NCBI RefSeq assembly: GCF_038049925.1 | Contig: NZ_CP145809.1 | Span: 2,514,599 to 2,578,598, forward strand | Direction of reading: 5' to 3' | Length of the DNA stretch: 64,000 nt | DNA from: Georgenia sp. M64 | GTDB lineage: Bacteria > Actinomycetota > Actinomycetes > Actinomycetales > Actinomycetaceae | Shown: positions 5,411-20,586 of the stretch, piece by piece | Layout of the letters: each line of letters opens with the position of its first letter | Numbering within the stretch: position 1 is the first letter of the stretch | Made by a program: the position numbers and the translations under genes | The notes under the pieces: model-generated | Database searches by the model: none | Told to the model about the DNA's origin: nothing | Seen by the model: only the letters and a program-made list of their open reading frames with translations

Positions 5411-5738
5411 CCCAGCTTGCCGAATGGCTGCCCGTCGATCTGGTCGGCCGCCACGGAGGGCTACTGCCCCGTGCGCTTAAGGAGACCTCAGTCAGCGACC
5501 GCATGCCACCTGAAATCGCCTAGAGATCATCACCCGGCGAACGGGCTCGGTGGTGGAGGGTGTGTAGCGGTCGATGGCGAGGTGTGTTGATCGACGGTGC
5601 ATGGCCCGTCGAGGCGGCCCGCACCCATCCCGATGCGCGGTCCTCGGCGTCAGCTCAGTCAACTCATGCTCACAGAGCACCTCCTGCGTCCCCAGCTGGC
5701 GAGATTAGGCAGCCGGCGTCCTCATCTCCAGTGATACC
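5411..5738. other. intergenic region, no gene recognised
   Basis: About 330 nt lie between the nuclease stop and the terminator of the next minus-strand gene. Short open frames are present on both strands but none resembles a known protein or has a ribosome binding site. It may hold decayed DNA left by the event that brought in the nuclease gene. Confidence 0.5.
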
Positions 5739-5769
5739 GCCGCCCCCGGAGCGCAGCTCCGGGGGCGGC
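5739..5769 (-). terminator. strong hairpin terminator of the long minus-strand operon
   Basis: A perfect 14-bp GC-rich stem (5739-5752 with 5756-5769) with a 3-nt loop lies 7 nt downstream of the esterase stop codon. It is the first strong hairpin seen after the LacI-led gene train, so it probably ends that transcript. Confidence 0.85.
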
Positions 5770-5775
5770 CGACCG

Positions 5776-7935
5776 CTACGGAGCGATGGTCATCGTGAAC
5801 ACGTCACCGGCTCCCGCGTTGGTCTGGCCGTCCGGAGCGCCGAAGCTGAGGCCGGAGACCAGCACGCTGCCATCGGGCGCACCCGCGGCGTAGAGGTTCG
5901 CCTCGTCCCACTCGTCGGCACCGTCACGGTCGCCGGACCCGAACTGGCTGCGCTCCCCCACCGCGCCGCTCGCGTCGAGCACGGCGGTGAACACATCCAC
6001 CCCGCCCACCTGGGAACCGATCGGCCCGTAGGTCGTTCCGACGAGCAGCACCGAGCCGTCGGCGCGAGACACGGCGGTGACGCCGCGGTCGTCGGTCGCC
6101 GTGCCCAGCTGGGTGGTCCACAGCTCCGAGCCGTCGTCGGCGAGAGCGAGGGCGAAGGCGTCCTTGTCCCCGAACGCCGTGGCGCCGAGCTGGCCGCCGG
6201 TGTGGCCGACGGCGATGACGGTGCCGTCGTCGCGGACTTCGAGCCCGCTCACCTGGTCGGTGTCGCCGGTGCCGTGCTGGTTCAGCCAGGCGACATCGCC
6301 GGCTGCGGTGAGCCGGGCGGTCCAGCCGTCAAGGCCGCCCGCGGCGGCACCGCCGGGCATGGCGCCACCGGCGACCCCGCCCACGTACACCCCGCCGTCG
6401 GGCGCCGGTGCGACGGCGAGGGCCTTGTCCTCGCCGGTGCCGCCGATCTGCTTCACCCACGCGAGGGCGCCGTCGGCGGTGACGCGGGCGACGAGAGCGT
6501 CCTTGTCGCCGGCGCTGGGGCCGTCGACGCTGCCGCTGGTGTACCCGGCCACGAACGCGCCACCCGCCCCGTCGGAGGCGACGGCGTAGACGCGGTCCGC
6601 GGCGGCCGGGTCACCGAACTGGGTGGTCCATTCGCGCGCACCGGCGGCGTCGATCCCGGCGACGAACGCGTCGTCGCTCGCGCCCGACGGGTGGGCGCCG
6701 TCGAGGTCGCCGCGGGTGTACCCGGCCGTGACGACGCCGCCGTCGCTCCCGGCGACGACGCCGTACGCGCGGTCGTTGGCCGCGGTGGTCAGGGCGTGAC
6801 GCCAGGCCACGCTGCCGTCCGCGGCCCGCCGCTCGAGGACGACGTCCATCGCGCCGGCGTAGGGGACGTCGGCGTAGGCAGCCCCGACGTTGAGGCCGAT
6901 CAGCGTGCCGTCGTCGAGCGCGAGCGCACCGCCCGCGCGGTCGTCACCGCTCGTGCCCAGCAGCTCGGCGTCCCACGGCGTTGCCGGCGTGGTGCGCAGG
7001 CGGGCGGAGACGTCGGTGATTGCCTCACGGAAGGCGGGCTGCCACACGTCCCAGTCGTGGCCGCCGTCGAGGACCCGAAATTCCGCGGTCACGCCGTCGA
7101 CGCGGCGGGCGGTGTTGTAGAGCTGGGCAGACTCGAAGTCGAGGTCGTGGCTGGCGTCGGCGGGGTCGGGGTTCGCCCACTCGTCGTCGCCCACGGCGAT
7201 GAACAGGTGCACCGGCAGGCCGGGGTCGAGCGCCTCGAGGGCGGTCGGGTAGCTGAGCTCGGTGTACCGGTGCTTGTCGAAGAGCTTGTGCCCGACGCCG
7301 TAGGCGCCGTAGTCGCGGGTCGAGGAGTCCGCGGGCGGCTGGGGGACGTAGACCGCCGGGCTGAGGACTATGCCGGCGGAGAACGTGTCCTGGTGGGCGA
7401 GGGTGAACCGCAGCGCCCCGGCGCCGCCCATGGAGTACCCGCCGACCGCGCGGGCGGCCCGGTCCTCGACGGTGCGGTAGGTGGCGTCCACGTGCTCGAC
7501 GAGGTCCTCGGTGAAGGCGGTCTCGACGGACATGCCCGCGCCCGCCCCGGTCGCCTTGTCCCCGGTGTAGAGCGAGTCGGTGTACCAGCTCCCGCGCTCG
7601 TTCCACGGCGCATCGGGCATGACGACGACCATCGGCTGGATGGTGCCGGCGGCGATCATCTCGTCGAGGTCGCCCGCGACGCGTTGCCACGCCGCCTGGG
7701 TGTCGCCGCGGCCGTGGAGGAGGTAAACGGTGGGGTACTCGGCGTCGCCGGCGTCGTACCCGGCGGGCAGGTAGACGGTGTAGTCGATGGTCCCGACGGC
7801 GTCCGAGGGGGCCTGGGCGGTGAGCACCGTGCCCGTCTCGGCGGCGAGGGCGGGCAGGGCGGCGGGCGCGCCGGCGCCGAGGAGCACGGCGGCCCCGGCT
7901 CCGGCGAGCACCCGGCGGGTGAGGCGGTTCCTCAT
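5776..7935 (-). CDS. secreted alpha/beta-hydrolase esterase with C-terminal beta-propeller repeats
   Basis: This 719-residue exported protein has an arginine-rich n-region and a hydrophobic segment (RRVLAGAGAAVLLG) ending near ALAAE at about residue 32, possibly a Tat signal. Residues about 40-310 form an enterochelin-esterase/esterase-D-like alpha/beta hydrolase: the nucleophile sits in GYSMGGAGAL, the acid is probably in GDDEWANPD, and the histidine is in GGHDWDVW. Residues about 330-719 hold repeated GG-VVTAGYTRG and GGAFVAGYTSG blades of the SBBP/delta-60 propeller type, which may bind a polymer or the cell surface. The gene starts 36 nt after the CitE-like stop behind GGGAGAG. It is probably the last gene of the operon and may release an acyl or aryl group from the substrate outside the cell. 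Confidence 0.85.
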   Translation of the reverse strand: MRNRLTRRVLAGAGAAVLLGAGAPAALPALAAETGTVLTAQAPSDAVGTIDYTVYLPAGYDAGDAEYPTVYLLHGRGDTQAAWQRVAGDLDEMIAAGTIQPMVVVMPDAPWNERGSWYTDSLYTGDKATGAGAGMSVETAFTEDLVEHVDATYRTVEDRAARAVGGYSMGGAGALRFTLAHQDTFSAGIVLSPAVYVPQPPADSSTRDYGAYGVGHKLFDKHRYTELSYPTALEALDPGLPVHLFIAVGDDEWANPDPADASHDLDFESAQLYNTARRVDGVTAEFRVLDGGHDWDVWQPAFREAITDVSARLRTTPATPWDAELLGTSGDDRAGGALALDDGTLIGLNVGAAYADVPYAGAMDVVLERRAADGSVAWRHALTTAANDRAYGVVAGSDGGVVTAGYTRGDLDGAHPSGASDDAFVAGIDAAGAREWTTQFGDPAAADRVYAVASDGAGGAFVAGYTSGSVDGPSAGDKDALVARVTADGALAWVKQIGGTGEDKALAVAPAPDGGVYVGGVAGGAMPGGAAAGGLDGWTARLTAAGDVAWLNQHGTGDTDQVSGLEVRDDGTVIAVGHTGGQLGATAFGDKDAFALALADDGSELWTTQLGTATDDRGVTAVSRADGSVLLVGTTYGPIGSQVGGVDVFTAVLDASGAVGERSQFGSGDRDGADEWDEANLYAAGAPDGSVLVSGLSFGAPDGQTNAGAGDVFTMTIAP

Positions 7936-7962
7936 GGTTCTCTCCCTTGAGAATCGTGGACG

Positions 7963-7975
7963 CTGAACTGTTCAG
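7963..7975. repeat. 13-nt palindrome over the CitE-like stop codon
   Basis: CTGAAC-T-GTTCAG is a perfect inverted repeat that overlaps the stop of the CitE-like gene, 28 nt before the esterase start. It could be an RNA processing hairpin or an operator giving the esterase separate control. No regulator is assigned. Confidence 0.35.
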
Positions 7976-8793
7976 TCCTCGGTGAGGGCGAGGACGGCCC
8001 GGGCCTGTTGGACCATGGCGACGTCGAGGAACGTGCCGTCCTCGAGCGCGATCGCCCCGACGCCGTCGGTACGCGCGTCACCCACCCTCGCGACGACGGT
8101 GCGGGCCCGCTCGACCTCGGCGTCGCTGGGGCGGAACGCCTCGCGGATCGGGCCGAGCTGGGCGGGGTGGATGGCGGCACGGCCGAGGAACCCCAGCGTC
8201 TTCCCCTCGCGGCACGAGGCGGTGAGCCCGTCGAGGTCGCGAACGTGCGGGTGGACGGACATGTGCGGGGACGGCAACCCGGCGGCGCGGGCGGCGACGA
8301 CGACGCGGCTGCGCACCCACGCCAGGCCGGCGTCGTCGCTCAGCCGCAGGTCCGAACGCAGGTCGGCCTCCCCGAGCCCGACCGAGGCCACCTGGTCCGA
8401 CGCAGTCGCGATCTCGAAAGCTCGCTCGACGCCGATGGCCGACTCGAGAAGCAGGTGCAGGCTCCGGCCGGGCAGGGCGCCGGCGAGGGCACGGACCTGC
8501 CCCGCCGACTCGACCTTCGGCACCCGGGCGCCCACGTCGCCCGGCAGGGCGTCCAGCATGGCGACGTCGTCGGTGTGCCACGGGGTGTCCGGGTGGTTGA
8601 TGCGCACCTGGACCGGCCGGCCGGCGTCGGTGAGCAGCCGGGCCGTCTCGGTGCGGGCCCGGTCCTTGTGGGCGGGGGCGACGGCGTCCTCGAGGTCGAC
8701 GATGACGATGTCGGCGTCGGTGGCGAGGGCCTTGGTGACGCGCTCGGGCCGGTCGCCCGGGACGTACAGGAGCGTGAGCACGGGCCGGGTCAT
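7972..8793 (-). CDS. CitE-like HpcH/HpaI-family CoA-ester lyase
   Basis: This 273-residue TIM-barrel enzyme belongs to the citrate lyase beta-subunit/malyl-CoA lyase group, which cleaves 3-hydroxyacyl-CoA esters into acetyl-CoA or a related acyl-CoA plus a keto acid, using Mg2+. It shows LLYVPGDRPERV at the N-terminus, DLEDAV with metal-site acids near residue 36, RINHPDTPW, PKVESA, LLLESAIGV with the second conserved glutamate, and GRAAIHPAQ near residue 215. The length fits stand-alone CitE-like proteins rather than the citrate lyase complex. The ATG at 8793 overlaps the CoA-transferase stop (ATGA). Following a CaiB-type transferase, it plausibly cleaves the acyl-CoA that enzyme makes; the acid is unknown. 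Confidence 0.85.
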   Translation of the reverse strand: MTRPVLTLLYVPGDRPERVTKALATDADIVIVDLEDAVAPAHKDRARTETARLLTDAGRPVQVRINHPDTPWHTDDVAMLDALPGDVGARVPKVESAGQVRALAGALPGRSLHLLLESAIGVERAFEIATASDQVASVGLGEADLRSDLRLSDDAGLAWVRSRVVVAARAAGLPSPHMSVHPHVRDLDGLTASCREGKTLGFLGRAAIHPAQLGPIREAFRPSDAEVERARTVVARVGDARTDGVGAIALEDGTFLDVAMVQQARAVLALTED

Positions 8794-9998
8794 ACGGCGC
8801 CCTCGTCCCGCAGCGCCGCGATCCGCTCGGGGGTGAAGCCGAGCTCGCCGAGGACGGCGTCGGTGTCGGCGCCCGGCGGCCGGCCGGTGAACGCGATGAC
8901 GCCGTCGTTGCCGGAGAGCCGGAACAACGGGCCCTGCATGAGCATGGGGCCGAGCTCAGGGTCGTCGATCTCGTGGACGGTGCCGAGCGCTCGGAACTGC
9001 GGGTCCTCGACGATGTCGTGCGCGTCGTACACCGGCGCGACAGCGGCCTGGGCCTCCTCGAAGGCGGCGACCACCTCGTCGCGGGTGCGCCGGCCGATCC
9101 ACGCCCCGACGGCCTCGTCGATGACGTCGGCGTGCTGGGCGCGCTCGTGGCCGCTGGCGAACCACGGCTCGTCGACGAGGTCCGGCCGGCCGACGAGCCG
9201 CATGATCCGCTCGGCGATCGACTGGGCCGAGCTCGACACGGCCACCCACTGGCCGTCACCGGTGCGGTAGGTGTTGCGGGGGCTGTTGTTGCTCGACCGG
9301 TTGCCGGTGCGCGGCTGGACGGTGCGGGTCTGGTCCCACCGGGTGATCTGGGGGCCGAGCATGGCGAGGATCGGCTCGATGATCGACACGTCGACCACCT
9401 GGCCTCGCCCGGTGGCCTGCCGGGCGTGCAGGGCGGTCATGATCGCGTACGCCGTGGCGAGCGACGCGATGCCGTCGGCGAGGCCGAAGGGCGGGAGGGT
9501 GGGCGGGCCGTCGGGCTCGCCGGTCATGGCGGCGAACCCGCTCATCGCCTCGGCGAGGGTGCCGAACCCGGGGCGGGTTCGGTACGGGCCGATCTGGCCG
9601 AACCCGGAGACCCTGGCAAGGACGAGCCCGGGGTTGGCGGCGGAGAGCTCGTCGTAGCCGAGCCCCCAGCGCTCCAGGGTGCCGGGGCGGAAGTTCTCGA
9701 TGACGACGTCGGCCCGGCCGGCGAGGGCGAGGAAGACCTCGCGTCCGCCGTCGGAGCCGAGGTCGGCGGTGACGGTGCGCTTGTTGCGGCCGAGGGTCTT
9801 CCACCACAGGTTGACCCCGTCCTTGCTGGCGCCGTGCCCGCGGGAGGGGTCGGGCCGGCGGGGGTGCTCGACCTTGACGACGTCGGCGCCCATGTCGCCC
9901 AGGTGCGCGGCGGCGAGCGGGCCGGCAAAGAGGGTGGAGGCGTCGACGACGGTGAGGCCCGCCAGGGCGCCGTCGGTCTTGTCGCGGGAGACGGTCAC
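8790..9998 (-). CDS. CaiB/BaiF-family (class III) CoA-transferase
   Basis: This 402-residue enzyme moves CoA from a donor thioester to a carboxylic acid through an aspartyl-CoA thioester. Family features are DASTLFAGPLAAAHLGDMGA with KVEHP, NLWWKTLGRNKRTV, ENFRPGTLERWGLGY and SGFGQIGPY. The active-site aspartate is expected in GLADGIASL. I choose GTG at 9998 because it overlaps the upstream stop as GTGA and has GGAGG five bases before it; an ATG at 10022 would add eight residues. The position between a glycosidase-like fusion gene and a CitE-like lyase suggests activation of an organic acid released during substrate breakdown. Confidence 0.88.
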   Translation of the reverse strand: MTVSRDKTDGALAGLTVVDASTLFAGPLAAAHLGDMGADVVKVEHPRRPDPSRGHGASKDGVNLWWKTLGRNKRTVTADLGSDGGREVFLALAGRADVVIENFRPGTLERWGLGYDELSAANPGLVLARVSGFGQIGPYRTRPGFGTLAEAMSGFAAMTGEPDGPPTLPPFGLADGIASLATAYAIMTALHARQATGRGQVVDVSIIEPILAMLGPQITRWDQTRTVQPRTGNRSSNNSPRNTYRTGDGQWVAVSSSAQSIAERIMRLVGRPDLVDEPWFASGHERAQHADVIDEAVGAWIGRRTRDEVVAAFEEAQAAVAPVYDAHDIVEDPQFRALGTVHEIDDPELGPMLMQGPLFRLSGNDGVIAFTGRPPGADTDAVLGELGFTPERIAALRDEGAV

Positions 9999-12076
9999 TG
10001 GTCCTCCAGGGTCCAGGCGCACCGGAACCCGATGCTCGAGCTGCGGGCCAGGCCCAGGCCGGGGACGAGGAGCTTGGCGGTGAAGTCAGCAGCGCGGACG
10101 CCGCCGTCGAAGTACCACTCCGAGCCCTCGCACTGATGCGCCGAGCCGCCCTTGAGCATCGCGAAGCGGGTGCGGCCGTCGCTGTGCTCACTGTCGGTCC
10201 AGCTCCACACCGCCGGTGTGCCGCGGCGGATGCCGCGTTCGCCGGCGAGCTGCCACTCGTCCTCAGTGGGCAGGCGCCCGCCGCGCCAGGCGCAGTAGGC
10301 GCGTGCGTCGTCGAGGTCGACGAACGTCACCGGCTCGTCCTCGCGTCCGGCCGGCGGGCGGCCCTTGTCGAAGTGGGCGAGGAAGCGGTGGGCGACGGCG
10401 GGTGTGTAGCCGGTAGCGGCGAAGAACGCGGCGAACTGGGCGTTGGTGACCTCGGAGGCGGCGACGGCGACGGCGTGGTCGAGCCGCCCGTCGCGCTGGA
10501 GCGTGCGGGCGTCGTGCAGGCGCGGGACGAGCGGCTTCCACTCGTCGACGTAGGGCGCGCCCTGGTACATGCCGGTCTCCCGGGCGCGGAATCGCACGGT
10601 GAGGACGTACTCCCCTGCCGGGACGACGACGGCGTCCGCGGGCACGTCGTCGGTCCGAGCCGCGAGCGAGGCCGGGGCAGGCGGGACCGAGGGGCTCGGA
10701 GCCGAGCCGGGAACATCCGCGACGACCGGGCTCAGCCGGCGGGCGAGGCGGTGCGGGAAGTGGCCGTCGTCGTCGAACGGCATGGTGGCGAGCCGCTCGC
10801 GGAGCCCGGGCAGCCAGTCCGGCTCGCGGGCCCCGGGCGCGACGGCGAGCGCGGCACCGATCGAGCGGGCAGGGACGGTGACGGGATTGAAGGTGCTCCT
10901 GTCGGTGACAGTGTCCGTGTCGGCCACGGCGCCGCCGTCGGTCCTGAACAGGTCGACCACGATGCCGTCGGCGGGCAGCGGGCCGGTCCAGTCGGCGTCG
11001 CCGCGGTTGACCAGCGCCCACAGCGTCACGCCGTCGCGGGCGAAGGTCGAGGCGTAGATCCCCGCGTCGTGGGCGTCGGGTGAGATCTCGGCGAGTGGGG
11101 TCCACTCGCCCTCGAGCAGCAGGTCGGCGGCGGCGCGCTGCACGGTGACCGTGCGGCGCACGGTGGCAGCGTCGCGGGGGTTCCACCCGACCCACACGCC
11201 GAACACCACCTCCCACACCATGACCCCGACGCCGTTGAGCCAGGCGGACTGCAGCTCCTCGGTGTGGTCGCGGTGCCAGCGACGGATGTGGTGCTGCATG
11301 TGGCGGCGCTCGTACCAGTGGGCGCGCAGGACGCCGGGCACGGGGCTGTCGGCGAAGAACTGCGCCCAGGACGCGTTGTGGTCGACGATCCGCTCGACAG
11401 GCAGCTTGGACTCGCCCTCCAGCACGATGCCGGGGCGGGCGCGCTCGAGGGACTCGACGAGCTCCGGGTCGGCCTTCTTGAGGGTGTCGAGGAAGACACC
11501 GTCGGCCGGCAGGTCCCGCACGAGGGCGGCGAGCTCGGTGACGTCGTCGCCGCCGCGTCGGGTGCCGGTGTCCCACGGGTTGTAGTCGACGAAGACCTTC
11601 AGGCCCGCGGCGTGCAGGTCGGCCACGAGCCGGTCCAACCCCGGGACGTCGCGGTAGTAGTCCCACTGGTTGCGGTCGTCGATCCCGATGACCGGGTAGG
11701 CGTGCCAGAGCACGACGGCGTCGAGGCCGCCGAACCGCTCCCGGGCGTCGTCGACGAAACGCTCGGGGGTGAAGCGGTGGTCGTCGAAGGAGTACAGCAG
11801 CTCGTCCCACAGCCACACCTGCGCCACGGTGAAGCAGCGCGCGGCCCATCGGGCGCCCGACCGGTCGTACGCGGCGCCGTCGTAGGCGTGGCGCTGCCGG
11901 GCGTCCTCACGCCAGGCGGTGAGGCGCGCCCGCCACAGGGGCCAGTCGGCGGGGTCGTCGGGCGCCGCGAAGATCTTGGCGACGTCGAGTGCCGTGAGGT
12001 CGGCGCCACCCTCGAGCGGGACGGATGTGGGGGCGTCGATGGGGCGCGGGACGAGGGGGTCGAAGCTGTAGCTCAC
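9995..12076 (-). CDS. TIM-barrel glycosidase-like protein fused to an FGE/SUMF1-type domain
   Basis: This is a 693-residue cytoplasmic fusion with no signal peptide. Residues about 60-370 look like a glycoside-hydrolase TIM barrel: DAVVLWHAYPVIG, KVFVDYNPWDTG, DGVFLDTL, IVLEGES and LNGVGVMVWEVVFG give acidic residues at strand ends. Residues about 370-440 resemble the beta-sandwich that follows such barrels. Residues about 460-690 form a formylglycine-generating-enzyme/sulfatase-modifying domain with EVTNAQFAAFFAATGY, RAYCAWRGGRLPTEDEW, MLKGGSAHQCEGS and GFRCAW. Such domains often serve as carbohydrate-binding or non-oxidase modules, and I see no sulfatase nearby. The ATG overlaps the ribokinase stop. 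The substrate is unknown; a sugar conjugate is inferred from the operon. Confidence 0.75.
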   Translation of the reverse strand: MSYSFDPLVPRPIDAPTSVPLEGGADLTALDVAKIFAAPDDPADWPLWRARLTAWREDARQRHAYDGAAYDRSGARWAARCFTVAQVWLWDELLYSFDDHRFTPERFVDDARERFGGLDAVVLWHAYPVIGIDDRNQWDYYRDVPGLDRLVADLHAAGLKVFVDYNPWDTGTRRGGDDVTELAALVRDLPADGVFLDTLKKADPELVESLERARPGIVLEGESKLPVERIVDHNASWAQFFADSPVPGVLRAHWYERRHMQHHIRRWHRDHTEELQSAWLNGVGVMVWEVVFGVWVGWNPRDAATVRRTVTVQRAAADLLLEGEWTPLAEISPDAHDAGIYASTFARDGVTLWALVNRGDADWTGPLPADGIVVDLFRTDGGAVADTDTVTDRSTFNPVTVPARSIGAALAVAPGAREPDWLPGLRERLATMPFDDDGHFPHRLARRLSPVVADVPGSAPSPSVPPAPASLAARTDDVPADAVVVPAGEYVLTVRFRARETGMYQGAPYVDEWKPLVPRLHDARTLQRDGRLDHAVAVAASEVTNAQFAAFFAATGYTPAVAHRFLAHFDKGRPPAGREDEPVTFVDLDDARAYCAWRGGRLPTEDEWQLAGERGIRRGTPAVWSWTDSEHSDGRTRFAMLKGGSAHQCEGSEWYFDGGVRAADFTAKLLVPGLGLARSSSIGFRCAWTLEDQ

Positions 12077-12990
12077 GCGTGCTCCCTCGCGAGCCGGGCG
12101 GTCTCGGTGGCGGTGGGGACGGCGTTCTGGGCGCCGGGCCGGGTGACGGCGAGCGCCCCGGCGGCGGCGGCGAGCCGGGCGGCGTCGGCGAGGGAGGCGC
12201 CGTCGGCCAGGGCCGCGGCGAGCACGCCGCAGAAGGTGTCGCCGGCGCCGGTGGTGTCGACGGCGGTGACGGCCGGGGCCGTCACGGTCTCCGGCTCGCT
12301 GCCGCGCTCGGCGACCAGGGCGCCGTCGCCGCCGAGCGTGACCACGACGGCGGGGACCCGCTCGAGGAGGGCGGCGGCCAGCCCGCCGGGATTCCCGTGG
12401 TGCCCGACGGGGTCAGGGCCGGCCAGGTCGCGGGCCTCGTGCTCGTTGACGACGAGGACGTCGATCTCGGCCCACACGTGGGCCGGCAGGTCCCGGGACG
12501 GGGCGGCGTTGAGCACGAACCGCGCGCCGCCGCGGCGGGCGCGGGCCGAGGCGACCACGGTCTCCAGCGGTATCTCCAGCTGGGCGAGGACGACGTCGGC
12601 AACGGCGAGACGGCCGGCGGCGGCGGCGTCCACCGTCACCTCGGCGTTCGCGCCGGGCGCGACGATGATGGCGTTCTCGCCGTCGTCGGTGATCCAGATG
12701 AGCGCAGTGCCGGTGGGCTCCTCGGTGCGGGCGACGAGGTCGGTGCGCACGCCGGCGCCCGTGAGCGAGTCGAGGAGCAGGTCCGCGGCCTCGTCGCGCC
12801 CGAGGGCGCCGAGGAACCACGTGTCCGCGCCCCCGGCGCGCGCAGCGGCCACCGCCTGGTTGGCGCCCTTGCCGCCGGGCGTGCGGCGGAGGTTGCCGCC
12901 GAGGATCGTCTCCCCCGGTGCCGGGTGCCGCGGGACGTCGACGACGAGGTCGACGTTGGCGCTCCCGACGACGACGACGGTGCCGGTCAT
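12073..12990 (-). CDS. rbsK: ribokinase (PfkB family)
   Basis: This 305-residue sugar kinase phosphorylates D-ribose at O5 to ribose 5-phosphate using ATP. The N-terminus VVVVGSANVDLVV and the sugar-binding motif RRTPGGKGANQAVAAARAG (about residues 35-53) are typical of ribokinase rather than fructokinase. The ATP/catalytic motif DTTGAGDTFCGVLA near residue 247 contains the general-base aspartate. The start at 12990 overlaps the upstream ADP-ribosylglycohydrolase-like stop by four bases. Its place directly after three ribosyl-hydrolase-family genes is the main reason to think free ribose is an intermediate of this pathway. Deoxyribose or another pentose cannot be excluded. Confidence 0.92.
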   Translation of the reverse strand: MTGTVVVVGSANVDLVVDVPRHPAPGETILGGNLRRTPGGKGANQAVAAARAGGADTWFLGALGRDEAADLLLDSLTGAGVRTDLVARTEEPTGTALIWITDDGENAIIVAPGANAEVTVDAAAAGRLAVADVVLAQLEIPLETVVASARARRGGARFVLNAAPSRDLPAHVWAEIDVLVVNEHEARDLAGPDPVGHHGNPGGLAAALLERVPAVVVTLGGDGALVAERGSEPETVTAPAVTAVDTTGAGDTFCGVLAAALADGASLADAARLAAAAGALAVTRPGAQNAVPTATETARLAREHA

Positions 12991-14195: not shown

Positions 14196-15259
14196 CGTGC
14201 TGCCTCCGAGGTGCGGGCCGAGGACCGGTCTCTCTGGGCGGTGACGATCTCGCTGAGGACGTCCTCGACGGCGAGGCCGGCGAGGGCGCGCACGCTCGTG
14301 CCGGTGAGCACCGGCAGCGGGGCGCCGCCCGTGACGTCCCCGAAGGCCGCGCCGGCGACCGCCCCGGCCAGCGGGACGAGGGCGTCGGCGTGGCGCGGGT
14401 GGGCCAGGGCCCCGAGGAGGAGCTCCTCCGCGCTGCTCGCCGCGGCGAGGTGGGCGAGGAGAAGCCCGAGGGTCTCCGGGGCCTGGTTGGAGAAGGCGTA
14501 GACGTGGTCGACGACGTCGCGCTCGAGGCGGGCGGCGAGGGCCCACGGCGCGGCCGGTCCGACGGCCAGGCACTCGGTGACGACGTTGGCGCACCAGCCG
14601 CCGGCCGGCAGCTCGGCGACGGCGGCGTCGATCGCGTCCTCCGTGCTGCCGCCCGCGAGGAGGGTGGCCAGGAGCGCGGCGGCGCCGCGGGCGCCGTCCA
14701 CGCCGTCGAGGGCGTGGGTGATCCGGGCGTCGTCCTCGGCGAGGTCGGCCGCGCCGAGGGGGTCCCCCGGCCGCAGGACGGCGGCGGCGACGGCCCGCAC
14801 GCAGGCGACGTCGTCGAAGTAGTGGGCGTTGTCGTTCCCGGTCTGGGGCGCGGACATGCCGGCCGCGAGGTTCTCCAGCGCCATGAGGGTGCCGAGCCTG
14901 GCCCGGACGGTGCCGGGCTCACGCCTGCGCTGCTCGGCCACCTGCGCCCAGGCGCCGTCCCCCTCGCCGGCGGGCGAGCCGTCGAGGCGCTGCCGGAGGT
15001 GGTGGCGCAGCGCGACGACGAACCACTCGACGTCGTCGGCGGGCCCGGCGGGGTCGATGAGCTCGGGCGAGGACGACTGCAGGTAGGGCGTGGGCAGGGA
15101 CGTCGACCCGAGCGCGTGGCTGTGCCGCACGGCCTCACCGAGCCGGACGCTGCGCCGGGGCGGGAAGGCCCCCAGGCGGTGCCACCACGACGGCCACGCG
15201 ATGGCGTCCCCCGCGCTCATCCCGGCGATCGTCCACCGGGTCCGTTCCGTCGTCGTCAT
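14192..15259 (-). CDS. ADP-ribosylglycohydrolase-family protein, paralogue 2 (altered metal site)
   Basis: This 355-residue relative has the same fold and position as its neighbours but is diverged. The first metal motif reads GPADDVEWFVV instead of TDDT. The C-terminal motif reads HPRHADALVPLAGAVAGAA, so the usual D-x-D-T/S has become H-A-D-A, losing one metal-ligand aspartate and the adjacent hydroxyl residue. The fold signature TIAGMSAGDAIAW at the N-terminus is retained. It may bind substrate without hydrolysing it, use another metal arrangement, or act as a partner subunit. The ATG at 15259 overlaps the stop of paralogue 3 (ATGA), and its own stop overlaps paralogue 1, so all three are translated together. 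Confidence 0.8.
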   Translation of the reverse strand: MTTTERTRWTIAGMSAGDAIAWPSWWHRLGAFPPRRSVRLGEAVRHSHALGSTSLPTPYLQSSSPELIDPAGPADDVEWFVVALRHHLRQRLDGSPAGEGDGAWAQVAEQRRREPGTVRARLGTLMALENLAAGMSAPQTGNDNAHYFDDVACVRAVAAAVLRPGDPLGAADLAEDDARITHALDGVDGARGAAALLATLLAGGSTEDAIDAAVAELPAGGWCANVVTECLAVGPAAPWALAARLERDVVDHVYAFSNQAPETLGLLLAHLAAASSAEELLLGALAHPRHADALVPLAGAVAGAAFGDVTGGAPLPVLTGTSVRALAGLAVEDVLSEIVTAQRDRSSARTSEAAR

Positions 15260-16236
15260 GACACTCCCTGCAGCTCGGTCGCGAGGTCGCACAGCTGGTC
15301 GGCGATCTCCATCGGGTGCATGCCGCGCGTGGCGGTCAGGCACACCCCCGGCGCCACGGCGACCGCGGGCAGCCACTCCTCGGGCATGGCCGCGATCCCG
15401 GCCATGGCGCCCGCGACGGCGCCGGCCATGGCCGCGACGGTGTCGGCGTCGCGGCCGAGGTTGACGGCGTTGAGGATGGTCTCGCGCGGGTCCCCGCCGC
15501 CGGCGAGGACGGCGGTGAAGGCCAGGCCCACCGCCTCGGGCGCGAGGTCGGCCCAGTAGTAGCCGCGCACGGCCAGCCGGTCCACCGCGGCCGGGGCCAC
15601 GACCGACCAGTCCGGCGACGACGCGGCGACGGTCCGCGCGACGGCGAGGCACCGGGCCGTCCAGGAGTCGGCGGGGACGGCGTCGACCGCGGCCGTGACG
15701 ACCCCGTCGACGTCGGCCCCGGCCATCGCGGCGGCGACGGCCGCGGCGACCGCCTGCCCGGCGTAGATGCCCTCCCCGGCGTGGGAGACGGCGCCGTCCT
15801 CGGCCGCGAGCCGGGCGGCGAGGGCCGGGTTGCCCGCGGCCGCGATGCCGATGGGTGCGACCCGCATGGCCAGGCCGTCGCTCCACGCGTGGGCGTGCTG
15901 CCCGGACCGGGGCGGGCGGTGGCCGCGCTCGAGGTTGCGGATGGCGGCCATCTCGCTGAACCCGCCGCCGGCGAACCCGCCCTGCTGGCCGCAGACCTCC
16001 TCGCGCCACAGGTCGGCGACGGTCTCGGCGGTGAAGCCCGAGCGGTAGCGCAGCAGCGCTTTGGCGGTGAGGAGGGCGTACTCGGTGTCGTCGCTGCCCA
16101 GCGGGGTGTCGGCGACGTACCCCTCGATCCTGCCCCACCGCGCGACGATCTCCGCCGGTTCCATGCCCTCCGCGGGCCGCCCGAGCGCGTCGCCGACCGC
16201 CAGGCCGGCGAGGCAGCCGCGGGCGCGGCTTCTCAT
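15256..16236 (-). CDS. ADP-ribosylglycohydrolase-family protein, paralogue 3
   Basis: This 326-residue ARH-fold hydrolase has an intact metal site: RARGCLAGLAVGDALGRPAE at the N-terminus, PLGSDDTEYALLT near residue 47, and VNLGRDADTVAAMAGAVAGA near residue 274. It is the first of three consecutive paralogues and the closest to the canonical family. I annotate the ATG at 16236, but GTG at 16245 has a better-spaced AAGGGGAG and would add three residues. It lies 83 nt downstream of the solute-binding protein gene. The separate paralogues may act on different ribosyl positions or form a hetero-oligomer. Confidence 0.88.
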   Translation of the reverse strand: MRSRARGCLAGLAVGDALGRPAEGMEPAEIVARWGRIEGYVADTPLGSDDTEYALLTAKALLRYRSGFTAETVADLWREEVCGQQGGFAGGGFSEMAAIRNLERGHRPPRSGQHAHAWSDGLAMRVAPIGIAAAGNPALAARLAAEDGAVSHAGEGIYAGQAVAAAVAAAMAGADVDGVVTAAVDAVPADSWTARCLAVARTVAASSPDWSVVAPAAVDRLAVRGYYWADLAPEAVGLAFTAVLAGGGDPRETILNAVNLGRDADTVAAMAGAVAGAMAGIAAMPEEWLPAVAVAPGVCLTATRGMHPMEIADQLCDLATELQGVS

Positions 16237-16319
16237 GTCCTCCACGTTCTCCCCTTCGTCGTCGTGCTCCGCCGTGCTGGTGCGCCCACGCCCGGGCGCA
16301 CCGGCCGGCGGTCGACCGG

Positions 16320-17627
16320 TCACCGACCGATGTCGGCGCCGCCCTCCTCGAGCTGCTGCGCGAGCTCCTCGGCGGTGATCTCCTCGGCGAAGTACCGCTG
16401 GAAGGCCGGGGTGGCCGCGCGGTCGCGCCACTCCTCGAAGCCGGCGAGCTGCTGCCACGGCGCGGCCATGAGCGAGTCCATGGACGCCACGGCGATGTCC
16501 CAGCCCTGCTCCCCGCCGGTCTCCTCGGAGAGCACCTCGAGCGCCCCCTCGCTGGTGGGGACGAGCCAGTCGCCGAGCGCGAGCTCGGCCATGTTCTCGT
16601 CGTTGAGGAAGAACTCGATGAACTGCGCGGCGGCCTCCTGGTTCTCCGACTGCGCCGCGATCGACAGTGTCTGCGGGTTGGCCGACTGCGCGCTGCCCTC
16701 GCTGCCCTCCAGCGGCGGGAGGGTGACCCACTCGAAGTCGTCGGGAGCCTGCTGGACCATCTGCTGACGCAGCCAGATCGCGCCGAAGAGCATCGCCGTC
16801 TCCTCCCCGAAGAACGCCGGGAGGGCGTCGGTGGTGCTCACGCCCACGGAGTCGGGGTCGATCGTCTCGGACTCGTAGAGCATGGAGTGGATGCGGGTGG
16901 GCACCTCGAGCTCGGGCTCGCCGACGGAGATGGTGGCGTCCTCGCCGTCGCCCTCGACGTAGTCGCCGCCGAAGCCCAGGGAGAGGTTGAGCATGGCGTT
17001 GGCGGGGCTGCCCAGCGGCCACGCGACGCCGTAGCGCCCCTCGGAGGTCAGCTGCTCGGCGGCGTCCTGGAAGTCGTCCCACGTCCACGGGTTCTCGGCG
17101 GTCGGGATCTCGATCCCGGCCTCCTCGAGCATCGTGGCGTTGGCGAACGGGACGCGCGCCTCGAGCAGGAAGGGGGCGCCGACCGTGCCGTTGCCCTCGA
17201 CCTGGACGGTCTCCCAGATGCTCTCGGGGATGCCGGCCTTGAACTCGTCGGAGAGCAGGGGGTCGAGGTCGGCGTAGTAGCCGCCCTCGGCGAAGACCTG
17301 CCCGGCGGCCGCCTCGTAGTGGATGATGTCGGGCGGGTCGCCGCCCTCGAACGAGGTGAGCAGCTGGTCGTGGACCGAGCCCCAGTCGCCCTGGACGTAC
17401 TCGACCTGGATGTCGGGGTTCTGCTCGTTCCACTCCTCGACGATGGCCTGGTTCGCCTCGATGGAGGCCTCCTGCCACGCGAGGGACTGGAACCTCAGGG
17501 TGATCGGTTCCTCCGCGCTGCCGGTCTGCTGGTCGGCGCCTTCCTGGTCGCCGGTCCCGCCGCCGCAGGCGGCGAGGACGAGTGACGCACTCACCGCGGC
17601 GGCGGCGACGCTCATGCGCTTGCTCAT
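16320..17627 (-). CDS. carbohydrate ABC transporter solute-binding lipoprotein (family 1)
   Basis: This 435-residue extracellular receptor carries a lipoprotein signal with the lipobox LVLAAC (Cys near residue 21). The mature protein has the SBP_bac_1 layout: ITLRFQSLAWQ, NEQNPDIQVEYVQGDWGS, PDIIHYEAA, NPWTWDDFQDAAEQLTSEGRYG and a C-terminal helix rich in Glu and Gln. This family binds oligosaccharides, glycosides or polyols. The ATG at 17627 has GAGAGGAG upstream. It follows the two permease genes after 104 nt, a gap that often allows higher expression of the binding protein. The ligand is unknown; a ribosylated compound is inferred from the hydrolases downstream. Confidence 0.9.
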   Translation of the reverse strand: MSKRMSVAAAAVSASLVLAACGGGTGDQEGADQQTGSAEEPITLRFQSLAWQEASIEANQAIVEEWNEQNPDIQVEYVQGDWGSVHDQLLTSFEGGDPPDIIHYEAAAGQVFAEGGYYADLDPLLSDEFKAGIPESIWETVQVEGNGTVGAPFLLEARVPFANATMLEEAGIEIPTAENPWTWDDFQDAAEQLTSEGRYGVAWPLGSPANAMLNLSLGFGGDYVEGDGEDATISVGEPELEVPTRIHSMLYESETIDPDSVGVSTTDALPAFFGEETAMLFGAIWLRQQMVQQAPDDFEWVTLPPLEGSEGSAQSANPQTLSIAAQSENQEAAAQFIEFFLNDENMAELALGDWLVPTSEGALEVLSEETGGEQGWDIAVASMDSLMAAPWQQLAGFEEWRDRAATPAFQRYFAEEITAEELAQQLEEGGADIGR

Positions 17628-17731
17628 CGTGTTGCTCCTCTCGGTGGTGCTGTAGGTCGGTGGTGGTGGGTAGGTGCTGGAGGTCGGTGGGTGGTCGGGT
17701 GAGATGGCATCGGTGTCCTGTCGGTGCGGGA

Positions 17732-18640
17732 TCAGCCCTTGGTGGCGCCGGCGGTCATGCCTCCGATGAGGCCCTTCTGGATGAAGCCGAAGAAGACCAG
17801 GCCCGGGATGGTGGCGACGAGCGCACCGGCGGCCAGCGGCCCGAGACGGGCCACGCCCTCGAGGCCGACGAACCGGGCGAGGGTGAGCGGGAGGGTCTCC
17901 AGCTCGGGGCTCTTGATGAGCACGAGGGCGAAGAAGAACTCGTTCCACGCGGTGATGAAGGCGAACAGGGTGGTCGCCACGACCCCGGGGAGCAGGAGCG
18001 GGAAGACGATCGAGCGCAGGATCCGCAGCCGGGACGCGCCGTCGACCATCGCGGCCTCCTCGATGTCCGCGGGCAGCTCCCGGACGTAGCCCTGCAGCAT
18101 CCACAGCGCGAACGGCAGGATCCACACCACGTAGATGAGGACGAGGCCGGGGCGGGTGTCGACGAGCTGCGCGCTGCGCAGCAGCAGGAAGATCGGGATG
18201 ACGAGGAGGATGAAGGGGAACAGCTGGCTGACGAGCACCCAGGCGAGGATCGGCTTGCCCATGCGTGAGCGCAGGCGGACGACGGCGTAGGACGCCGGGA
18301 GGGCCACGAGCACGGTGAGCACCGCGCTGGCGAGGGCGACGACGAGGCTGTTGACGATCGACCGGACGAGCGCCTGCTCGCTGAACGCGGTGACGAAGTT
18401 GTCCAGCGTCGGCTGCTCCGGGAAGAGCCCGGGGTGGAGCCGGACGAGGTCCTGCGGCGACGCGAACGACGTCGACAGCAGCCACAGCAGCGGGAAGCCG
18501 AGGAAGAGCAGGTACAGGCCGAGCGCCACGTACTGCAGCGGGCGCACACCGCGCGGGAGGCGGTCCATCGGCGAGGTCCCCGACTGGCGCCCGGCGGTCG
18601 TGGGGGGCGCGGTGTCGGTGGACACGACGGTCGTGGCCAT
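17732..18640 (-). CDS. carbohydrate ABC transporter permease, MalG type
   Basis: This 302-residue inner-membrane permease is predicted to span the membrane six times, starting at LQYVALGLYLLFLGFPLLWL. The EAA loop that docks with the ATPase is EEAAMVDGASRLRILRSIVF near residue 205, and the conserved WNEFFFALVLIKSP follows. It forms the channel with the adjacent MalF-type subunit. The ATG overlaps the upstream stop by one base (TGATG), indicating translational coupling. No ATPase gene is present in the operon, so a shared MsiK-type ATPase encoded elsewhere probably energises it. Confidence 0.92.
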   Translation of the reverse strand: MATTVVSTDTAPPTTAGRQSGTSPMDRLPRGVRPLQYVALGLYLLFLGFPLLWLLSTSFASPQDLVRLHPGLFPEQPTLDNFVTAFSEQALVRSIVNSLVVALASAVLTVLVALPASYAVVRLRSRMGKPILAWVLVSQLFPFILLVIPIFLLLRSAQLVDTRPGLVLIYVVWILPFALWMLQGYVRELPADIEEAAMVDGASRLRILRSIVFPLLLPGVVATTLFAFITAWNEFFFALVLIKSPELETLPLTLARFVGLEGVARLGPLAAGALVATIPGLVFFGFIQKGLIGGMTAGATKG

Positions 18641-19539
18641 CAGGTCTCCTCCCTGAGCCGGCGGCGTAGGTAGAACAGGACGACGACGAGCACGATGAGG
18701 ACCATGACGTTGCCCAGCGCGGCGGCGTAGCCGTAGTTGCCGTACCGGAACGCCTCCTCGTAGGCGAAGAGCATCGGCAGCAGCGTCCGGCCGCCGGGCC
18801 CGCCCCGGGTGAGGACGTAGACGAGGTCGAACGAGTTGAAGTTCCAGATGAAGTTCAGCGTCGTGATCGCCGCGATGACGCCGCGCATGTTGGGCAGCGT
18901 GATCGAGAGGAACCGCCGCCACCGGCTCGCGCCGTCCACGGCGGCGGCCTCGTGCATCTCCTGGGGCACGCCCTGCAGGCCGGCGAGGAGGACCACGGTG
19001 GTGACCGGCAGCCCCGCCCACACGCCGACGACGATGACGGCGGGCAGGGCGGTGCTGAAGTCGGCCAGCCAGTTCCGGCCCAGCTCCTCCAGCCCCAGCC
19101 GGTAGAGGATCTCGTTGACCAGTCCGGCGTCGGGCCGGTAGACGAGGGACCACATGATGCCGACGACGACCGGGGGCATCGCCCACGGCACGACGGCCAG
19201 GGTCCGGGCCAGCCATCGTCCCCGCAGGTTCTCGTTGAGCAGCAGGGCCAGGCCGAGGGCCAGCACGAACTGGATGCCCGTCACCGCGAACGCCCAGATG
19301 AACCCGATGCGGAAGGACGACCAGAACTTCGAGTCGTCGAGCATCTGGCGGTAGTTCTCCAGGCCGTTGAAGGCGTAGACGGCGTTGAGGCCGGCCTGGG
19401 CGTCGGTGAACCCGAGGTAGACCCCGCGCAGGAGCGGGTAGACGCTCAGGGCGAGGATCGGGATGACGGCCGGCAGGAGCAGCCACAGGGCAGAGGTGCC
19501 CCGCTGCTGCTTGCGCCGCGTCGTGGCGGGTGCGGTCAC
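18640..19539 (-). CDS. carbohydrate ABC transporter permease, MalF type
   Basis: This 299-residue membrane subunit has six predicted helices, starting at ALWLLLPAVIPILALSVYPL. The EAA motif is EMHEAAAVDGASRWRRFLSI near residue 205, followed by NFNSFDLVYVLTRGGPGG, a MalF signature. The start is GTG at 19539, with GGAGGG four bases upstream and a GTGA overlap with the LacI stop; no ATG lies near it. It pairs with the MalG-type subunit and the family 1 binding protein downstream. Confidence 0.92.
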   Translation of the reverse strand: MTAPATTRRKQQRGTSALWLLLPAVIPILALSVYPLLRGVYLGFTDAQAGLNAVYAFNGLENYRQMLDDSKFWSSFRIGFIWAFAVTGIQFVLALGLALLLNENLRGRWLARTLAVVPWAMPPVVVGIMWSLVYRPDAGLVNEILYRLGLEELGRNWLADFSTALPAVIVVGVWAGLPVTTVVLLAGLQGVPQEMHEAAAVDGASRWRRFLSITLPNMRGVIAAITTLNFIWNFNSFDLVYVLTRGGPGGRTLLPMLFAYEEAFRYGNYGYAAALGNVMVLIVLVVVLFYLRRRLREET

Positions 19540-20555
19540 GTGTCCCTCCTTCGTGTGCTCGAGCCGCGCACGACCAGCTCGGTGTAGACCTGCTGGCGGC
19601 GCGGGGCTCCCGTGTAGCGGCCGTGGATGCGGTCGAGGAGCATCTGACCGGCGAGGCGGCCACGGTCGGCGAACCGGAGATCGACGCTGCTCAGCTGGGG
19701 ACGGCAGACCGTGGCGTCCCGGGAGTTGTCCATCCCCACCAGGGCGACGTCCTCGGGCACGCGCAGCCCGGCGTCCTGGCAGGCGTGGAACGCGCCGACG
19801 GCCAGCTGGTCGTTGGCGCAGAAGAGGCCGTCGACGTCGTGCTCGGCGAGCAGGCGGGCGGTGGTCTCGTACCCGGCCTCGCGGGTGAAGGCCGCGGCGT
19901 GGGTGATGACCGGCTCGCCGGCTCCGCGACCGTCGAGGGCGGCGCGGAACCCGCCGGACCGGCTCCGCGCGGGCAGCGTCCCCTCGGGACCGTTGACCAT
20001 GGCCAGTCGCTCGCACCCCTGGTCGAGCAGGTGATCCGTGGCGATCCGTGCGCCGTCGGCCGCGTCGGCACCGACGGAGTCGACGGCGAGCCCGTCGGGG
20101 ACGGAGCCGATGACGACGACCGGGACGGCCGGCTCGCGAAGCGCCTTGACGAGCTTGGGATGGAACCGGGTCGAGGTCATGATGAGCCCGTCGACGTACC
20201 GCTGGCGGAGGCTCTCCACGACCCGCAGCTCCTCCTCGAGCCGACCGTCGGTCGACTCGACCAGCAGTCGGAGCCCGTGCTCGCGGGCGAGCGCCTGGAG
20301 CGCACGCATCGTCTCGACGTAGGCGGGGTTCCCGATGTCGTCGACGACGAGGCTCAGCTGGCCCGTCGAGCGCCCCCGGAGCGAGCGCGCCGCGGCGCTC
20401 GGGAAGTAATCGGTTTCTAGAACTGCTTTCCGGACCCGCTCACGGATGTCCTGGCCGACGCGCGGATCGTCGTTGAGGACGCGGGAGACAGAGGCGACAG
20501 AGACGCCCGCACGTGCAGCGACGGCAGAGATCGTCACCGACCGGCCCGCGACCAT
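19536..20555 (-). CDS. LacI-family transcriptional regulator
   Basis: This 339-residue regulator is the first gene of the catabolic operon. The N-terminal HTH VTISAVAARAGVSVASVSRV with the hinge helix AARSLRGRST is typical. The periplasmic-binding-protein-like core (FYP-type TDYFPSA, VDGLIMTS, VGMDNSRDATVCRPQLSSVD) binds a sugar effector. I choose ATG at 20555, because GGGAGG lies five bases upstream and the HTH begins at once; the reading could extend to 20618 but would add unstructured residues. Being co-transcribed with its targets suggests autoregulation, with inducer released by the imported sugar or ribose derivative. Confidence 0.92.
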   Translation of the reverse strand: MVAGRSVTISAVAARAGVSVASVSRVLNDDPRVGQDIRERVRKAVLETDYFPSAAARSLRGRSTGQLSLVVDDIGNPAYVETMRALQALAREHGLRLLVESTDGRLEEELRVVESLRQRYVDGLIMTSTRFHPKLVKALREPAVPVVVIGSVPDGLAVDSVGADAADGARIATDHLLDQGCERLAMVNGPEGTLPARSRSGGFRAALDGRGAGEPVITHAAAFTREAGYETTARLLAEHDVDGLFCANDQLAVGAFHACQDAGLRVPEDVALVGMDNSRDATVCRPQLSSVDLRFADRGRLAGQMLLDRIHGRYTGAPRRQQVYTELVVRGSSTRRRDT

Positions 20556-20586
20556 CACAACCTCCCTGTTGTGAAACTGATTACAC
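20555..20586. promoter_or_regulatory. inverted repeats at the operon start (candidate LacI operators)
   Basis: Two overlapping dyads sit at the head of the operon. TCACAAC-N6-GTTGTGA (20555-20574) is a perfect 7-bp inverted repeat enclosing the lacI ribosome binding site and touching its start codon. Next to it, GTGAAACTGATTACAC (20571-20586) is an imperfect dyad of the form GTGnAA-N4-TTnCAC, similar to known LacI-family boxes. They could be operators for autoregulation. The first could also form an mRNA hairpin that hides the Shine-Dalgarno sequence. Confidence 0.55.

Follow-up and report, generated by a model that had tools for sequence, protein, structure and literature searches.

A Conserved Operon of ADP-Ribosylglycohydrolase-Fold Proteins in Actinomycetota and Its Hybrid Copy in Georgenia sp. 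M64

Organization of the Operon

The DNA analyzed here is a 64,000-nucleotide stretch of the Georgenia sp. M64 genome, which is a single 4.18-Mb contig (NZ_CP145809.1, positions 2,514,599 to 2,578,598; hereafter the window, with coordinates counted from its first letter). Its minus strand carries, between 5776 and 20558, an operon of twelve genes that begins with lacI, ends at 5776 with an esterase gene, and places a sugar-type ABC importer beside three proteins of the ADP-ribosylglycohydrolase (ARH) fold, a ribokinase-like kinase, and a coenzyme A (CoA)-transferase with a C–C lyase. The operon is conserved and not local to this genome, and the window copy is a hybrid. All twelve genes that a sequence-only reading had described at this place are present, and its family calls are confirmed by Pfam matches to LacI, two BPD_transp_1, SBP_bac_1, three PF03747, PfkB, FGE-sulfatase, CoA_transf_3, HpcH_HpaI and the esterase family. 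Most genes overlap their neighbors, as that reading also held: eight of the 11 junctions do so, by 4 nucleotides (nt) between lacI and permA, by 1 nt between permA and permB, and by 4 nt at each of the six junctions that link arh1, arh2, arh3, rbsK, fge, caiB and citE. Gaps of 104, 83 and 36 nt separate permB from sbp, sbp from arh1, and citE from the esterase gene, respectively. The LacI gene does come first, as proposed, but its proposed start at 20586 does not hold, the more likely start codons being a GTG at 20558 or an ATG at 20555.

The LacI-family regulator (19536–20558, minus strand, as for all genes of the operon) matches PF00356 and Peripla_BP_3. The importer consists of two permeases, PermA (18640–19539) and PermB (17732–18640), both of PF00528 (BPD_transp_1), and a MalE-like solute-binding protein (SBP; 16320–17627) that matches PF01547 (SBP_bac_1) and PF13416. 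It had been described as lacking an ATPase, correctly so: none is encoded in the operon, and an OB_MalK search found one MalK-type ATPase elsewhere in the genome, with which these parts make up an importer of the carbohydrate type.

The kinase, RbsK (12073–12990, PF00294), has ribokinases as its best solved matches (6znx and 1gqt were aligned) and scores 274.4 bits against the TIGR02152 equivalog, below the cutoff of 299.65. Its N-x-D, GGKGANQ, QLExPLE and AGDTF motifs align with 1gqt, which we take to be Escherichia coli RbsK, the aligned motifs presumably having ribose-site and catalytic roles. The next gene (9995–12076) encodes a fusion of a TIM-barrel glycosidase-like domain and an FGE-like domain, the latter recognized by PF03781 over residues 527–633. 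In a predicted model (mean pLDDT, the predicted local distance difference test, of 82.4), Foldseek matches the fusion to GH13-type and other TIM-barrel glycosidases with E values down to 1.7e-10, though with low TM-scores (~0.33 on the query). Asp197 and Glu222, invariant in 33 sequences, lie directly after model strands 193–196 and 218–221; the GH13 nucleophile and acid/base sit likewise after strands.

The family III (CaiB-type) CoA-transferase (8790–9998), called in the longer reading frame, matches PF02515 (CoA_transf_3) with 393.4 bits (E = 1.4e-117) and reaches no listed NCBIfam cutoff; its nearest families are formyl-CoA, succinate-glutarate and succinyl-CoA:mesaconate CoA-transferases, and a succinate-hydroxymethylglutarate CoA-transferase is among its five best solved matches. 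The CitE/RipC-like acyl-CoA C–C lyase (7972–8793, PF03328, HpcH_HpaI) reaches neither the nearest equivalog, RipC (150.2 of 375 bits), nor citE (132.9 of 443.4 bits). Together, the two predicted enzymes would fit a 3-hydroxy diacid. The last gene (5776–7935) encodes a probably secreted PF00756 esterase with a beta-propeller-type repeat.

Active-Site Motifs of the ARH Proteins

ARH1 (15256–16236), ARH2 (14192–15259) and ARH3 (12987–14195) all exceed the PF03747 gathering cutoff of 26.2 bits, with 199.8 (E = 9.5e-59), 66.9 (E = 3e-18) and 155.6 bits (E = 3e-45), respectively. The metal motifs are intact in window ARH1 (SDDT and GRDADT) and ARH3 (TDDT and GRDSDS), and orthologues keep them: ARH1 has [TS]DDT and GRDADT in 20 of 20 sequences each, and ARH3 has TDDT in 93 of 93 and GRDxDS (GxDxD[ST]) in 92 of 93. 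A further ARH-fold protein found in relatives, here called c5, with ~450 residues and an extra N-terminal stretch of ~100 residues, has DDD[LIV] in 98 and GxDTDS in all of 99 sequences. ARH2 is divergent. Its window motifs are degenerate (ADDV and PRHADA), none of 21 ARH2 sequences has GxDxD[ST], and the first Asp of GxDxD is lost in every one of them, the set including the second genes of loci L107 and L167, which were assigned by hand. The sequence-only reading had drawn on the cutting of ribosyl bonds by ARH enzymes for all three, which this loss in ARH2 does not support as stated.

At L107 (8896–10976) and L167 (12011–14025), ARH1 and a divergent partner gene are paired near other importers and without the CaiB/CitE core, which suggests a two-subunit unit. 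Because the metal motif is lost throughout and these pairs stand side by side, the sequences suggest that ARH2 is a noncatalytic partner of ARH1.

A second motif also sets these proteins apart. The GNGxxMR stretch, which has a role in ADP-ribose binding, is kept in the solved DraG and ARH3 chains (the latter not the operon protein). In the operon families the Asn of NGxxMR is replaced, the stretch reading SDG[LCA]AMR in ARH1 (20 sequences), CGA[AT]M[YF] in ARH3 (93) and [IV]GA[LQA]IR in c5 (99). The hypothetical protein MJ1187 likewise lacks this Asn.

Conservation of the Operon in Actinomycetota

Relatives were collected with the FGE fusion, by means of six short peptide patterns run over genome contigs; the best 80 of the 174 relatives obtained were analyzed. 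Gene order was counted by tblastn, anchored on the CaiB match, since a simple gene caller errs in GC-rich DNA by calling shadow frames. Two loci without a CaiB match, L022 and L061, were consequently scored as having none of the genes, even though importer genes, c5 and FGE were called in L022, and several others are truncated by contig ends. All 80 loci are from Actinomycetota, in 14 named families. The order SBP-ARH3-c5-FGE-CaiB-CitE is kept in 73 of the 80, and the full order LacI-PermA-PermB-SBP-ARH3-c5-RbsK-FGE-CaiB-CitE in 63. Thus, the gene set is conserved elsewhere, the lack of which had been named in advance as the result that would count against an operon of this kind. Individually, ARH3 is found in 73 loci, c5 in 75, and CaiB with CitE in 78, with RbsK and FGE varying; the esterase has an orthologue in 18, and ARH1 and ARH2 in none of the 80. 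The window gene set is not typical, being a hybrid without the fourth ARH, c5. An ARH1-like match of ~30% identity in the relatives was considered as a second ARH and rejected, as the gene is c5. The FGE protein had no match at 1e-20 in 395 other genomes of the phylum, and a family-level search with it matched 11 of 200 genomes, that of the window among them.

Two further observations concern single relatives. In four Promicromonospora loci (L027, L032, L038 and L047) the operon is followed, just past CitE, by another gene of the FGE-fusion cluster; the one scanned, in L032 (15026–16234), matched no Pfam family and could be a wrongly called frame. In L065 (Tessaracoccus coleopterorum) the order is the usual one, but several genes are each split into two calls, as a frameshift from decay or a sequencing error would produce.

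A search with c5 over 394 genomes of the class found a match at 1e-30 in 66 of them, and 35 of the surrounding regions were read. The close set comprises 20 loci, L145–L164, of which L145 (L058) and L146 (L074) were already among the 80; L152 lies close to contig ends and, having no CaiB match, was scored as empty, yet ARH1, ARH2, ARH3 and c5 are visible in it. By the same CaiB-anchored count, ARH3, c5, CaiB and CitE are each present in 19 of the 20, ARH1 in 17, ARH2 in 14, RbsK in 14, a local importer in 12 and FGE in eight. One group has the order LacI-PermA-PermB-SBP-ARH1-ARH2-ARH3-c5-RbsK-(FGE)-CaiB-CitE. The seven loci L158–L164 have ARH1-ARH2-ARH3-c5-CaiB-CitE, with RbsK after c5 in three, and no local importer. 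These are flanked by the glutamate synthase gene gltB and a VIT1 gene on one side and by a DsbA-like gene, lgt, trpA, trpB and trpC on the other, each flanking gene having been Pfam-scanned in one or two loci and traced in the rest by clustering. A called gene, k19, was rejected as GltB, being a shadow open reading frame without a Pfam match; GltB is encoded on the opposite strand.

This arrangement points to a laboratory species. In Streptomyces coelicolor, gltB is SCO2026 (PMC9282665), and SCO2028–SCO2031 are listed as putative ADP-ribosyl hydrolases or DraG/ARH homologues (PMC9411070; SCO2028–2030 also PMC5087735), according to the excerpts of these papers used here. Since gltB lies near these four ARH genes, just as it adjoins ARH1-ARH2-ARH3-c5 in L158–L164, SCO2028–SCO2033 very probably represent a version of the operon.

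Around distant c5 homologues, 17 contexts were read (L112, L113 and L165–L179), one of which, L178, yielded no called ARH gene. L112 has the order LacI-ARH-nucleoside hydrolase-SBP-PermA-PermB-PfkB, and L167 has LacI-ARH-(an unscanned 455-residue gene)-PermA-PermB-PfkB. A link between ARHs and ribose genes thus exists among the distant homologues, but it is not general. At L113 (6256–14235), a c5-type ARH and sugar ABC genes directly precede a PRPP-synthase-like and a NAMPT/NAPRTase gene, a possible link to NAD salvage. The window genome itself encodes a fourth ARH elsewhere (L183, 7208–10516; C1 near 2.886 Mb), grouped with genes for a LacI regulator and a PfkB kinase. A few kilobases on are genes for a BPD_transp_2 permease and an ABC ATPase, and the region also has urease-like genes, a name given from the beginnings of the sequences alone.

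The Window Copy Is a Hybrid

Comparison with L108, a locus from another genome of the same genus, reveals that the window operon is a hybrid, in which the seven promoter-proximal genes are from another lineage than the part from rbsK to the esterase gene. Window positions 5740–12999 match L108 with 87.6% DNA identity, and the match stops nine bases past the rbsK start, placing the breakpoint at 12990–12999, at the arh3/rbsK overlap. With the two sequences aligned at the first codon of rbsK, the bases upstream agree at 22 of 66 positions and those downstream at 46 of 54. The proteins follow the same division. Identity to the L108 proteins is 89% for RbsK, 84% for FGE, 91% for CaiB and 82% for CitE; upstream it is 58% for PermA, 55% for PermB, 45% for SBP and 56% for ARH3, and these four are nearer to another group of loci (65–68, 56–59, 47–53 and 66–67%, respectively). 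LacI hardly discriminates (40–44% versus 43–46%). Besides the window, the trees drew on 21 loci from the set of 80 and on 13 further ones; 26 rows had all seven genes. The upstream-gene trees reject a grouping of the window with the same-genus loci (P values of the approximately unbiased test, p-AU, of 1.4e-45 and 9e-11), and the downstream-gene trees reject its grouping with the other group (p-AU 1.9e-9). Two limits apply to these trees: the group names were assigned with the first tree already at hand, and in the upstream trees the window row sits on a long branch, so that they point to no particular donor of the upstream half.

The hybrid also lacks c5: none is encoded in the whole window genome, where the best matches to it are ARH1 and ARH2, and among the loci read no other has ARH1-ARH2-ARH3 without c5. 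The loss of c5 may be a handicap to the pathway, or it may reflect a shift in substrate.

The surroundings differ from L108 as well. A complete Wadjet type II defense operon (JetA2-JetB2-JetC2-JetD2; 20980–29174, plus strand) adjoins the swapped half and, as L108 has another gene at that position, it may have arrived in the same region. On the other side, a GmrSD_N/HEC-05-like protein (3311–5410, plus strand) and a PAP2 gene (1761–2963, minus strand) are encoded between a 242-residue gene (970–1698) and the esterase gene; in L108 a similar 242-residue gene, a 116-residue gene and the esterase gene adjoin one another.

Regulatory Elements

Many relatives carry a LacI-type palindrome, GGAAACGTTTCC, ahead of lacI, which is a putative operator. 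It is exact in 44 of 70 loci and present with at most one mismatch in 56. The fetched loci, 1.64 Mb in total, contain 84 exact copies, of which 62 precede lacI; the palindrome was not seen in the six Glycomyces loci examined or in L156–L164. As an operator of the window operon it was rejected, there being no copy within one mismatch across the whole window, an absence in keeping with the apparent divergence of the window LacI. Scans of the window for sigma-70-like promoters and for Rfam families gave no match. Downstream of the esterase gene, the strong terminator that had been proposed is in part borne out: a stable GC-rich, terminator-like hairpin is present (5739–5769, minus strand; −45.1 kcal/mol for 5725–5785, z −4.6), but it has no T-run and is not listed by the terminator scan.

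Proposed Pathway and Alternatives

We propose, at what we judge to be about even chances, that the operon serves the uptake and breakdown of a small glycoside in which a pentofuranose, ribose being the likeliest, is joined to a short hydroxy-acid; no specific substrate has more than a slim chance, methanopterin fragments, bacillithiol, HMG-acylated apiosides, poly(ADP-ribose) fragments and arabinan being among those considered. The SBP and two permeases, driven by the MalK-type ATPase encoded elsewhere, would import the glycoside. Metal-dependent ARHs (ARH1 with its degenerate partner ARH2, ARH3, and c5 in relatives) would then cut furanosyl glycosidic bonds of this small molecule, not of protein-linked ADP-ribose. 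The kinase would trap freed ribose as ribose 5-phosphate, and the CaiB-type transferase would activate the released acid for cleavage by the CitE-type lyase into acetyl-CoA and a 2-oxo acid. The TIM-barrel/FGE protein and the esterase are accessory: where present, the former may trim another glycosidic bond and the latter may strip an acyl group extracellularly. The LacI protein would control the operon. The genes present and their order, the conservation of the set, the motifs, the mixed origin of the window copy and the palindrome of many relatives are observed, and the enzymatic steps and the identities of the sugar and the acid are what we infer, ribose from the ribokinase-like kinase and from context (the nucleoside hydrolase or PfkB beside the distant c5 homologues in L112 and L167, and the fourth ARH with PfkB and LacI), the acid solely from CaiB and CitE. 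More tentatively, with a probability somewhat short of even, we suggest jointly that ARH1, degenerate ARH2, ARH3 and c5 are distinct small-molecule furanosidases, ARH1 and ARH2 forming a heteromer, that start an undescribed glycoside pathway in Actinomycetota, and that the window operon kept its core but exchanged, at a boundary between genes, the promoter-proximal half that chooses the substrate.

Several points weigh against this proposal. The kinase, CaiB and CitE all fall below their NCBIfam equivalog cutoffs, and the usual ligands of MalE-type SBPs are oligosaccharides. Ribose may not be central: by tblastn, 11 loci with both c5 and FGE have no RbsK, and RbsK is missing from at least five of L145–L164. 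From the earlier reading a LacI-linked catabolic operon with importer, ARHs, ribokinase-like kinase and CoA-transferase/lyase pair stands (73 of 80 loci), but with RbsK absent from those 11 loci ribose release cannot be assumed to be its center. Among the 17 distant c5 contexts, a kinase called RbsK by BLAST occurs in only four (L112 and L167 Pfam-scanned) and a nucleoside hydrolase in only two (L112 Pfam-scanned). We know of no riboside with a malate-like acid. The window copy, because c5 and the relatives' palindrome are absent from it, may not be fully functional.

It is possible, though in our judgment unlikely, that the substrate is instead a non-ribose furanoside (e.g., arabinofuranosyl or apiosyl) or a glycoside from plants or cell walls that carries an acyl group. 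In that case the ARHs would be glycosidases that act on a different sugar, the kinase would belong to a side branch, and the ester-bound part would be the acid (malate, citramalate or 3-hydroxy-3-methylglutarate). Such a substrate would suit the MalE-like SBP and sugar-type permeases, the GH13-like TIM barrel, the PF00756 esterase of 18 of the 80 loci, the succinate-hydroxymethylglutarate CoA-transferase among the five best solved matches of CaiB, and the absence of RbsK from the 11 loci noted above. The kinase itself speaks against it, with its best matches to solved ribokinases and its kept motifs, as do the distant c5 homologues beside a nucleoside hydrolase or PfkB, which point to ribosides.

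We consider it improbable that the ARHs are true (ADP-ribosyl)hydrolases, reversing protein ADP-ribosylation or clearing ADP-ribose derivatives in an operon that is metabolically regulated or merely recycles ADP-ribose. PF03747 membership and the intact metal motifs of ARH1 and ARH3 are what such enzymes would have, one distant c5 homologue adjoins the NAMPT/PRPP-synthase-like group, and SCO2028–SCO2031 are in print under that name (excerpts of PMC5087735, for SCO2028–2030, and PMC9411070). However, the ARHs are linked to a sugar importer, CaiB and CitE, the NGxxMR Asn is lost, and no ADP-ribosyltransferase family is among the Pfam matches of the operon proteins. In addition, SCO2028 and SCO2030 had no activity on U-alpha-ADPr, as excerpted from PMC13036486. 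That SCO2028 is ARH1 and SCO2030 is ARH3 we infer from gene order, so that this assay transfers only so far, and a single negative ADP-ribosyl substrate does not exclude others; both points temper its support for the small-molecule furanosidase proposal. More improbable still is that the acid branch is the main purpose, with CaiB and CitE converting an imported hydroxy-acid, the ARHs modifying or conditioning it and ribose incidental: CaiB and CitE are present in 78 of 80 and 19 of 20 (L145–L164) loci with RbsK and FGE variable, in counts anchored on CaiB with the 80 sampled by FGE, but two to four ARH paralogues per operon, conserved nearly as well (ARH3 73/80, c5 75/80), point to glycosidic cleavage as central.

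Bacterial ARH-fold proteins are readily listed as ADP-ribose removers, and the operon indicates that part of the family may be metabolic hydrolases. If the furanosidase proposal is true, half of the DraG/ARH homologues counted in S. coelicolor, that is, SCO2028–SCO2031 as four of the eight in the excerpt of PMC9411070, would fall outside ADP-ribosylation. The hybrid, for its part, illustrates how recombination at the junction of two genes can give a catabolic operon a new input module.

Comparison with Known Systems

The families are known, and the operon appears undescribed: no published description was found in a literature search judged mostly on titles and abstract starts, and none of the papers searched mentions SCO2032 or SCO2033. 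The S. coelicolor genes SCO2028–SCO2031 resemble L158–L164 in being four consecutive ARH genes two loci from gltB. Unlike the window, the stretch read at L158–L164 has no importer, FGE or lacI gene, and the excerpts present the S. coelicolor proteins as uncharacterized ADP-ribosyl hydrolases.

With DraG and human ARH3, the operon proteins share the PF03747 fold and, in ARH1 and ARH3, the TDDT and GxDxD[ST] motifs; they differ in lacking the NGxxMR Asn, in the degenerate metal motif of ARH2, in the ~100 additional N-terminal residues of c5 and in their catabolic context. The acid branch is comparable to itaconate/citramalate degradation through RipC, the nearest NCBIfam lyase, in which a 3-hydroxy diacid is activated with CoA and cleaved to acetyl-CoA. 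The malate/citramalate CoA-transferase and lyase of the Chloroflexus type use the same CoA activation and acetyl-CoA-forming cleavage. In contrast to the RipC pathway, the operon lyase scores far below the cutoff, the transferase is of the CaiB family, and both are tied to a glycoside-type importer. Operons for nucleoside catabolism that encode inosine-uridine hydrolase likewise combine an importer, a ribosyl hydrolase and a ribokinase, and the L112 c5 homologue sits in one; the window operon differs in having no nucleoside hydrolase and an added acid branch.

The nearest described gene group is E. coli yegTUV, which comprises a predicted nucleoside symporter, an ARH and a sugar kinase, its function being given as unknown in the excerpt of PMC10819704 from which these details are taken. 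The window operon is not of this type (an MFS nucleoside-type transporter, one ARH and one kinase): its importer is an ABC and not an MFS system, it has three ARHs and not one, and it adds the CoA-transferase, lyase and TIM-barrel/FGE genes. In addition, the yegTUV regulator, GgaR (YegW), is of the GntR type and senses ADP-glucose (PMC10819704), whereas that of the window is a LacI protein. The likeness lies in the core arrangement, in which a predicted ARH is encoded next to a putative sugar kinase and a nucleoside-type importer, under a single-target regulator (PMC10819704).

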